A stretch of 44,589 nucleotides of DNA from assembly GCA_030670085.1 (NCBI GenBank), contig DAOVCJ010000005.1:1-44589 (forward strand), given 5' to 3'. Under the pieces are notes generated by a model, which was not told the DNA's origin, searched no databases, and saw only the letters and a list, made by a program, of their open reading frames with translations. Below, piece after piece: positions 5,855-9,564 of the stretch (its first letter is position 1; each line of letters starts with the position of its first letter). The position numbers and the translations under genes were made by a program. The stretch is from Candidatus Aenigmatarchaeota archaeon (GTDB taxonomy: Archaea > Aenigmatarchaeota > Aenigmatarchaeia > QMZP01).

Positions 5855-6412
5855 TTAAGCTAAAACGTTCCTTCTAGCGATGTTTTCTCCCCTTTCCAGT
5901 TCTATCATTACGAAGAGATTGACCTTGTCCCTCTGCCAGGTGAAACTTCGGGCCTCGCTCCCGAACTGAACAGACAAGCCATAGCCGGAACCAACCGAAG
6001 AGAACGTTGTGGATTGGGAGTCCCCGTCCTGGACAAAAACATTTCTCTGGTCCCCGTCAAGGTTCACATTCACGGTCATATCGGTTCCCATGTAGTTCCC
6101 CAGGGAAACCACCACATTCCCTGTTGCAGGATCCCCCTCTGCAAACACCCAGAATGATGAGAAGTTCATAAGGAAGTTACTGGTCAGTCCCCTTACCCAT
6201 GAGCTGAAGTCTTCCATTGTCTGCCTGGGATTCCCGTCCTCCAGGCCCAGGTTAAGGGCATGGGGGAATTCATTTTCCAGGTTTTGCAGAATATAATCCA
6301 TGTCCTGAAGGGGAAGTTGTGTAAGGGGCTTCCCAGGTGGAAGGCCTATGAAAAACAGTGAGCAAAGCAGTACTGCCCCGAGTATGAAGAACTGTGCTTT
6401 CATAATCTCCAC
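5855..6412 (-). CDS. Pilin-like / secreted hypothetical protein
   Basis: N-terminal hydrophobic helix then beta-rich extracellular-type sequence; overlaps the next gene. Confidence 0.6.
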   Translation of the reverse strand: MEIMKAQFFILGAVLLCSLFFIGLPPGKPLTQLPLQDMDYILQNLENEFPHALNLGLEDGNPRQTMEDFSSWVRGLTSNFLMNFSSFWVFAEGDPATGNVVVSLGNYMGTDMTVNVNLDGDQRNVFVQDGDSQSTTFSSVGSGYGLSVQFGSEARSFTWQRDKVNLFVMIELERGENIARRNVLA

Positions 6413-6771
6413 ATATAGAGTTTAATCAGATAGGGCTGGTATTGATCCTCCCCAGCTATTATGTAATAGTTACCAATCCATATGTCCGCAGCATCCGGCA
6501 TATTTCCTGAACAATTACCTGCCTGGTCACAGAACTGCACGGAATGATTGTATTCGAAAAGCTTTATCTGGGAGTTCAGGCCTGAATAGTTACCGTCTAT
6601 GACATAACCCCTGAGAATCCCCTGCTGGTCAAGTTCATGCAAAATCTCATAACCCTTCAGACTCACGTACTCTCCAGGAATCCTTACATACCCGCTTGCC
6701 AGAGCAAGGACAAAGCTTATCATTATAATCCCTGCAAGAATGGCCTCTATCATATACCAAAATCCTCTCAT
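6400..6771 (-). CDS. Pilin-like hypothetical protein
   Basis: MRGFWYMIEAILAGIIMISFVLALASGYV: N-terminal hydrophobic helix with E, then a soluble domain with paired Cys. Confidence 0.6.
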   Translation of the reverse strand: MRGFWYMIEAILAGIIMISFVLALASGYVRIPGEYVSLKGYEILHELDQQGILRGYVIDGNYSGLNSQIKLFEYNHSVQFCDQAGNCSGNMPDAADIWIGNYYIIAGEDQYQPYLIKLYMWRL

Positions 6772-6791: not shown

Positions 6792-7427
6792 TTGTTTCCT
6801 CACCTAATAAAAAATATGAGTCTGCTCAAGATTTACCAGGTTCTGCTTAAATACTTCGGTCCCCAAGACTGGTGGCCCATGCAGAGGGGCTTCCATCCCA
6901 GGAAATGGGAAGTGGAGGTCGGAGCGGTTCTGACGCAGAACACGAGCTGGAAGAACGTTGAAATCGCTCTCAGGAACCTCAAAGAGGCAGGAATCGTTTC
7001 GAGGGAAAGTGTAAGAAAAATACCCGAAAAGAGGTTAGCGAATCTTATCAGGCCCTCTGGATACTACAACCAGAAGGCAAAGAAGCTCAGGAAGCTTGCA
7101 GAGTTTTCAGGAGACGTCACGAGGGAGAATCTTCTGGATATCTGGGGAATCGGGAGGGAGACAGCGGATTCCATCCTCCTTTACGCCTATGGAAAACCCT
7201 ACTTCGTTGTGGATGCCTACACAAAAAGGATATTCTCAAGGCTTGGTCTAATCAGAAGTGAGTGGAATTACGAGAAGATAAGGGAACACTTCGAGAAAAA
7301 TCTGCCAAGGGAAACCAAGCTCTACAAGGAGTACCATGCCCTTATTGTGGAGCTGGGAAAGAATTTCTGCAAAAACAAGCCGCTGTGCAGGGAGTGTCCG
7401 TTAAGTCAGCTTTGTAAAAAAGTCTAA
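6792..7427 (+). CDS. Endonuclease III-family DNA glycosylase (HhH-GPD, 4Fe-4S)
   Basis: LLDIWGIGRETADSILLYAYGKPYFVVDAYTKRI (HhH + catalytic Asp) and C-x6-C-x2-C-x5-C tail. Confidence 0.93.
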   Translation: MFPHLIKNMSLLKIYQVLLKYFGPQDWWPMQRGFHPRKWEVEVGAVLTQNTSWKNVEIALRNLKEAGIVSRESVRKIPEKRLANLIRPSGYYNQKAKKLRKLAEFSGDVTRENLLDIWGIGRETADSILLYAYGKPYFVVDAYTKRIFSRLGLIRSEWNYEKIREHFEKNLPRETKLYKEYHALIVELGKNFCKNKPLCRECPLSQLCKKV

Positions 7428-9118
7428 TCAAATTCTTCCTCCCCAAGCATAAATTCAATTTTCTTGAATGGTATGTGTCTGAGCTTCTCTGAAACATACT
7501 TCTTGTTCATGTTCAGCAATCTATAGTATATGTTCTTATAACAGAATCTCCTTAGTCCTACCTTAGGAGGTTTTTTGGGTATTGTTTCTATAAAGGCTAT
7601 AATCGCTTCATGAAAGAGATCTTCCATTTCAATACTCGGAAACCCTCTTCCTAATGCACCCCAATACACTCTCTTTGCTATATTTCTTATAAAGTCCCTG
7701 TTACGCCTAATTAATACCTTCAGAATCTCAGGGTTTCTCTCTATCATATCCTTTCTTATCTTACCGCTCTTTGAATAAACCAAGCCCGCCTGTTCTGCTG
7801 CTTCCTCTATAGTTCCGAAATATTTCTGTGCAGCATACTCAAGTTTGATATCTTTAGTGCTAACCCCTGTCACAATGCCTTCAGAAAACATCCCATTCAT
7901 GACTTCAATTACAGTCTCCCCGTTTTTCCAGTCTATCCTCGAAATCCACTCAGAACTATCGATTCCTATCTCCTCAAGAAAATCATACCAGCTATCATAT
8001 CTTCTGATGACAGCCCTATGATATTTTTTATTTTTTGGATCATTCTGAATATCAATTGCTCTAAGACTTGTTCCATCCTCATATAATTCAAGTACCTTTC
8101 TTTTTAATCCTTCTCCTGTGTATTTTCCCTTTAGTCTTATCTCATTGTAATCAAAACCAGCTTTATTAACCGCCTCTTCCCACCCGCCATCAAACTTCAC
8201 GCATGCCTGATAGAAAACAGTTCTTACAGAAATGTCATCATATTCAGTGATAGAAGTAATATCCAAAGGCACATCCATATTATGGAGCCTTTTTATTTCA
8301 CTGATTACTTCTTTCTTGCTTAATGACCTTGAGATCTTTCTAATTTCATCATAATCAAGACCAGTATATTCAATTGCTTTCTCCCATGAACCAAGATGAT
8401 TACACCCTGCTCTGTACAGATAATTGTAGTTATCCATTACATAACTTGTATTAAGTGGTTCTCCTCTTTCATGGAGTTTTAATATTTCCCCCTTTACTTT
8501 CTCTTTATCCCATTCCCTCTCTCTTATCTTGAATTTACTATAATCTATACCAGCGGTCTCTACAGCCTCTTCCCAACCACCATCGAATTTTCTATCTGAA
8601 ACATAAACCAATCTTCTCAGTTTCTTCTTTCTCTTATCTTTCAGTATAACGCTTGGGTTAAGGTCCTCCCCTTTAAGATGATAAGAAATTATACCTTTGA
8701 TTATCTCAGTTACGGTGTAGGGCTTTCTGGTTTTTCTTATTTTTTTGGGACTCAGTCCTATGCTTCTTAAAGCAGAGTCCCATGATCTGAAATACGTTAT
8801 GACAGCCTTGTATAAAGGAGTGTCATCATCCTTTACTGCAGCAGTGTTCATAGGCAAGCCGCTCTCAGACCTTTCTTTAAGATATTCTTTAGCCTTATTT
8901 TTATTCCATCTCCTTTGTATTACAATATCATCTACGTTTAATCCAGCATCATTCAAAGTGTTTTCCCAGAAGAATCGGCCCTCATAAAAATTCTTGGCTG
9001 CCTCATAAATAAATCTGTGTTCAGGATTATTCTGCAAACTATATGAATTTAATCTGACTCCTTCCTTATGTAATTTTCTGAGTGTTGTGTGAAGTTCATC
9101 CTTGTTTTTAATTACCAT
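7424..9118 (-). CDS. Tandem homing-endonuclease-associated-type repeat protein with C-terminal sigma-70 region 2-like domain
   Basis: About seven ~65-aa repeats (e.g. KVKGEILKLHERGEPLNTSYVMDNYNYLYRAGCNHLGSWEKAIEYTGLDYDEI) followed by LIRRNRDFIRNIAKRVYWGALGRGFPSIEMEDLFHEAIIAFIETIPKKPPKVGLRRFCYKNIYYRLLNMNKKYVSE. Confidence 0.75.
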   Translation of the reverse strand: MVIKNKDELHTTLRKLHKEGVRLNSYSLQNNPEHRFIYEAAKNFYEGRFFWENTLNDAGLNVDDIVIQRRWNKNKAKEYLKERSESGLPMNTAAVKDDDTPLYKAVITYFRSWDSALRSIGLSPKKIRKTRKPYTVTEIIKGIISYHLKGEDLNPSVILKDKRKKKLRRLVYVSDRKFDGGWEEAVETAGIDYSKFKIREREWDKEKVKGEILKLHERGEPLNTSYVMDNYNYLYRAGCNHLGSWEKAIEYTGLDYDEIRKISRSLSKKEVISEIKRLHNMDVPLDITSITEYDDISVRTVFYQACVKFDGGWEEAVNKAGFDYNEIRLKGKYTGEGLKRKVLELYEDGTSLRAIDIQNDPKNKKYHRAVIRRYDSWYDFLEEIGIDSSEWISRIDWKNGETVIEVMNGMFSEGIVTGVSTKDIKLEYAAQKYFGTIEEAAEQAGLVYSKSGKIRKDMIERNPEILKVLIRRNRDFIRNIAKRVYWGALGRGFPSIEMEDLFHEAIIAFIETIPKKPPKVGLRRFCYKNIYYRLLNMNKKYVSEKLRHIPFKKIEFMLGEEEFD

Positions 9119-9207
9119 ACTCTCTTAGAAAGAAATAAAATCAAAACTTTATAAATTCAAAATTTCTTGGTGATTGCAAATATAAAATTTAATCTGAAGT
9201 AATTAAC

Positions 9208-9564
9208 ATGGAAAAGAGATCCATACTGGTACTTGAAGGGGATGACACACTAAGGAAGCAAATTCTCAAGGAATTACTGGATTATGGCTATGATGCTCTG
9301 GCAACATTCCGATACAGGGGTGAAGTGGCAGAAAAGTTTGATGTTGTTTGTCTGGGTTCGGTTGAGTATGAAGAGGGTATAGCGAATCTTTGCAAGAAGA
9401 TAAAAAGCAAGGGAACCGGTTTGTTGCTAATGACAGATGATCCATATCTTGGCGGGGAACTCCTGGAGATGGAGTTGGTGGACGGCTATGCAAACAAGGA
9501 TTTAGATAATATCAAAGAAGCGCTCAAGATATATTTTGACCACGTCCACCCTATTTCTCGATGA
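9208..9564 (+). CDS. Receiver-like (degenerate CheY-fold) protein
   Basis: SILVLEGDDTLRKQILKELLDYGYDALATF...FDVVCLGS...GLLLMTDDP; receiver-like periodicity but no Asp at the expected phospho-site. Confidence 0.5.
   Translation: MEKRSILVLEGDDTLRKQILKELLDYGYDALATFRYRGEVAEKFDVVCLGSVEYEEGIANLCKKIKSKGTGLLLMTDDPYLGGELLEMELVDGYANKDLDNIKEALKIYFDHVHPISR

Follow-up and report, generated by a model that had tools for sequence, protein, structure and literature searches.

The window analysed here is a stretch of 44,589 nucleotides covering positions 1 to 44,589 of the contig DAOVCJ010000005.1 of a Candidatus Aenigmatarchaeota archaeon. Its reverse strand carries an intact gene at positions 7424-9118, with an ATG start and no internal stops. 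The 564-residue product is a fusion of seven tandem HNH repeats (residues 1-454) and a domain resembling region 2 of sigma-70 (residues 466-541; 7496-7723, reverse strand). This architecture is solid, and the initial annotation had both the exact position of the gene and the correct C-terminal residues. Only a short tail of 23 residues (542-564; 7427-7495, reverse strand) follows the sigma-like domain, and no profile of region 4 of sigma-70, which recognizes the -35 element, matches the fusion protein. Profile searches of the protein also matched no nuclease domain (HNH, LAGLIDADG, GIY-YIG, or PD-(D/E)XK), in agreement with the early remark that a nuclease motif was missing. The search of PDB sequences with the whole protein or its C-terminus returned zero matches.

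The fusion gene has a divergent neighbor on the forward strand, an open reading frame of 118 amino acids (9208-9564) that looks like a receiver domain and has no profile match above the cut-off. By eye, its phospho-acceptor Asp seems to be missing. Between the two genes lies a palindromic, TATA-box-like sequence, TTTATAAA (9148-9155), which may serve as a promoter. The two genes form a recently inserted, AT-rich islet, spanning approximately 7428-9564, between an endonuclease III gene and a DUF357 gene. In a congener (G001, L089), no gene separates the gene at 6400-6771 from the DUF357 gene (89% and 77% identity), and the endonuclease III gene, the fusion gene, and the 118-residue frame are absent from this locus. 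In another genus (G004, L092), PpsA has both an endonuclease III gene and a match to DUF357 close by. These two layouts show that the fusion gene and its receiver-like neighbor are an insertion with endonuclease III on one side and DUF357 on the other, and that the congener either lost endonuclease III as well or is without it at this locus. The GC3 of the fusion gene is 0.34, against around 0.5 in its neighbors, and no terminal repeats of note bound the insert. The foreign character suggested in the initial annotation is supported by the inserted, AT-rich character of the islet and by the absence of its genes from the congener. The archaeal nature of the host, also proposed there, agrees with the TFB gene present in the genome and with the synteny. 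Contamination of the window was considered and rejected on the basis of this synteny, with 77-89% identity on both sides. The fusion locus has no PADLOC match to a defence system, and apart from a repeat-nuclease-like protein in G021, the rest of the phylum gave no convincing relatives of either islet gene.

The repeats are well recognized by the Pfam family HNH_repeat (PF18780), which scores 53.9 bits on the fusion protein (E 2e-14), above the curated cut-off of 26. A home-made HMM, built from other HNH-repeat proteins, gave seven matches ending at residues ~61, 122, 192, 255, 323, 386, and 446. With this HMM and the alignment, we delimited on the reverse strand repeat 1 (residues 1-70; 8909-9118), repeat 2 (71-133; 8720-8908), repeat 3 (134-202; 8513-8719), repeat 4 (203-265; 8324-8512), which is the nearest to the consensus, repeat 5 (266-332; 8123-8323), repeat 6 (333-396; 7931-8122), which is the best Pfam HNH_repeat stretch, and repeat 7 (397-454; 7757-7930). 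The seven divergent tandem units of ~55-70 residues carry the pattern LYxA...GSWxxAxxxxGL, and several are degenerate when taken singly. Hence, the array of about seven homing-endonuclease-associated repeats recognized at the outset is confirmed.

The units of the fusion protein align with those of Bacillus and Brevibacillus, and a tblastn search of plasmids with the entire protein retrieved a repeat protein from Bacillus (E 2e-22). Tandem repeats of this family are shared with proteins such as BCE_A0008 of the B. cereus plasmid pBc10987, WP_173600033 of a plasmid of Brevibacillus sp. HD3.3A, and WP_317176023 of Halomontanus. However, the C-terminal domain of these proteins is of the PD-(D/E)XK-like, Xre-HTH, or HNH type, and none has a sigma domain. 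Across archaea and Bacillota, the repeats occur with domains of HNH, PD-(D/E)XK-like, LAGLIDADG-like, Xre-HTH, and helicase type, each of which acts on DNA; several of these were assigned by eye. Since the partners in the family are nucleases and HTH proteins, the repeats of the fusion protein probably bind DNA. Single repeats also occur in archaea, where we assigned by eye one on a LAGLIDADG-like protein (L104:1411-2286) and one on a DEAD-box-type helicase (L033:1456-3114). At the other extreme, a Bacillus subtilis plasmid protein (L009:1136-4096) has 17 HNH repeats that are near-identical except at a few hypervariable positions before FGSF, a pattern of variation that resembles modular DNA reading but does not prove it.

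The C-terminal domain is divergent. Pfam Sigma70_r2 matches it with E 0.0026 when the whole protein is searched and 2-4e-4 when the domain is taken alone, at 18-21.6 bits and thus below the cut-off of 24, and the NCBIfam model TIGR02937 (sigma70-ECF region 2) does so with E 3.5e-5 and 23.5 bits, below its cut-off of 42.9. The sigma factor family PHROG_351 also matches (E 7e-4), and the sigma profiles are the only ones to match this domain in the three libraries. Because the scores fall below the curated cut-offs, the family labels alone do not decide the assignment. When aligned with archaeal sigma region 2 by hhalign, the domain scored 35.2, whereas none of 500 shuffles exceeded 23.9 and none of 219 other pieces of the window exceeded 17.9. 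An HMM built from 13 sequences of region 2, taken from genomes of the host's phylum, ranked the domain first against 5000 shuffles, and the fusion protein first among the 280 open reading frames of the window. In 93 genomes of another archaeal phylum, tblastn found a 197-residue protein with regions 2 and 4 (G466; E 2.3e-4 in that genome), and pairwise BLASTP with this two-domain sigma factor gave 6e-8. Homology to sigma-70 region 2, already proposed in the initial annotation, is therefore real and well supported by these comparisons, albeit in a divergent form.

In the alignment, the domain is ECF-like. Its best conserved part corresponds to region 2.2, the polymerase-binding helix of sigma factors, here EDLFHEAIIAF (residues 499-509; 7592-7624, reverse strand). 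Of the polymerase-binding residues of region 2.2 (Asp, Gln, and Glu), this helix keeps Asp500, which is invariant in the region 2 alignment, and Glu504, while the usual Gln is replaced by His503, a substitution shared with one ECF-type sequence (L026). In region 2.3, the two aromatic residues of primary sigma factors are lost (LRRFCYKNI versus FSTYAxWWI). The region 2 homology and the residues Asp500 and Glu504 are shared with the ECF-type factors (TIGR02937, PF04542), including the archaeal ones of DPANN. In contrast to these, the fusion protein scores below the family cut-offs, lacks region 4, has no HTH of its own for the -35 element, and places region 2 downstream of its repeats, which reverses the order of a sigma factor. 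In structure prediction with AlphaFold, as suggested in the initial annotation, the single-sequence model of the C-terminus had a pLDDT of 59 and meaningless Foldseek matches, none of them to sigma factors. A model guided by 14 rows of sigma region 2 reached a pLDDT of 83. When it was compared with the PDB by Foldseek, sigma factors took all of the first 25 places, with SigE region 2 on top (TM up to 0.78, normalized by target). Phage sigma factors dominated the named matches of the guided model in a viral library. Since sigma rows were part of the alignment, this model shows compatibility with the sigma fold and is not independent proof of it.

It had also been suggested that BLAST might reveal whether the fusion recurs. 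No second case was found in 160 genomes of the phylum searched with the C-terminus, in 396 archaeal genomes searched with the whole protein, or in the 93 genomes of the other archaeal phylum. Nor was there one in the collections of genome contigs, viral contigs, phages, and plasmids. All that these hunts turned up were relatives with repeats alone and ordinary sigma factors, and the HNH-repeat proteins of the 396 archaeal genomes had no convincing match to the sigma HMM. These searches were mostly at the level of BLAST and patterns, which diverged copies could escape. No orthologue that would show conservation of the protein was found in the collections searched. Hence, while HNH repeats, the sigma-70 family, and archaeal sigma genes were already known, their combination is new in that it was not found in any of these collections.

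Transcription initiation in Archaea depends on TBP and TFB, and the initial annotation stated that they are not known to use sigma factors. This view is dated, since Castelle and colleagues reported sigma-70 genes in DPANN in 2021, excluding mis-binning and finding no anti-sigma factors (PMC8204110). In two genera of the host's family, complete sigma factors with regions 2, 3, and 4 adjoin tryptophanyl-tRNA synthetase-like genes, and in the host's order a sigma-like gene adjoins aIF2-gamma. These genes support and extend the 2021 report. Sigma matches above the cut-off occur in at most 26 of the 160 genomes of the phylum, which is an upper bound because some look like bacterial contamination, such as those in a 68% GC stretch of G023. 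No complete sigma factor was found in the host genome, which is 87.6% complete and whose small size suggests that the host, too, belongs to DPANN. Archaeal genes of the sigma-70 family were identified at L050:11213-12265 (G007), L051:1508-3049 (G008), L049 (G009, in three copies), L058:2-883 (G037), and L118:1474-2067 (G466).

The pairing of the repeats with a sigma domain suggests an unusual transcription regulator. Our tentative reading, which we hold as somewhat short of probable, is that of a horizontally acquired, site-specific transcription factor. The array of seven repeats would bind a DNA site and the ECF-like region 2 would dock on the clamp coiled coil of the archaeal RNA polymerase, where TFB and TFE also bind. 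The docked protein might then recruit or retarget the polymerase near the bound site, possibly aiding DNA opening. The clamp coiled coil of Archaea binds TFB, TFE, and Spt4/5, and the equivalent bacterial site is used by sigma-70 (PMC3223566). In the T4 late sigma factor gp55, the sigma R2 homology domain and a helix-loop-helix suffice, the protein contacts the clamp helices, and DNA-bound partners help (PMC7892883). These facts make a repeat-targeted, clamp-docking factor the most likely explanation. As in the fusion protein, the sigma homology of gp55 is limited to region 2, and other DNA-bound parts (gp33 and gp45) are relied upon; the repeats could thus substitute for the absent region 4, a role comparable to that of gp33 and the sliding clamp with gp55. 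The likeness is one of analogy only, since gp55 stands alone as a phage protein, carries an HLH motif and a clamp-binding tail of its own, and has no repeats. The islet itself, or its element of origin, would be the likely target, since the gene was inserted together with its receiver-like partner. A more specific version, where a modular, TALE-like array sets promoter choice and a bacterial-type region 2 acts on the archaeal clamp, seems to us rather improbable.

The sub-cut-off scores, the poor single-sequence model, the lost region 2.3 aromatics, the reversed order, and the lack of an orthologue all count against the site-specific factor. Two of these, the scores and the model, could even mean that the C-terminus is an unrelated helical fold resembling sigma by chance. 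We regard this as very unlikely, given the sigma-only matches in three libraries, a score exceeding those of 500 shuffles and 219 window pieces, and the BLAST match to a two-domain archaeal sigma factor. A possible, if doubtful, alternative is that of a DNA-binding protein of a mobile element, where a plasmid or virus protein of homing or regulatory type had its nuclease swapped out and reused region 2 as an extra DNA-contacting helical module, independently of RNA polymerase. HNH repeats do travel mostly with nucleases and on plasmids, the AT-rich, inserted gene occurs in one species, and its product lacks region 4 and the region 2.3 aromatics. However, the polymerase-binding region 2.2 is the best conserved, the opposite of what is expected for pure reuse in DNA binding. 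The loss of melting residues would also fit binding without opening, as in a repressor or polymerase decoy whose region 2 sits on the clamp coiled coil and keeps TFB/TFE (or Spt4/5) away from it at repeat-marked sites, silencing a locus or the genes of an invader. This seems unlikely, and the protein matches no model of a defence system.

If the site-specific factor is the correct reading, the protein would reveal a new route to replacing region 4. The fusion is small and expressible, and may be used to ask if any docking of sigma-type domains on archaeal RNA polymerase is possible, a question raised by the bacterial-type sigma genes carried by some DPANN genomes. In the course of these searches, we also identified a 123-residue protein with sigma region 2 only (L055:1222-1590, G046), encoded beside an Mre11/SbcD-like gene in a T4-like arrangement; its contig, although binned with an archaeon, is probably from a phage.
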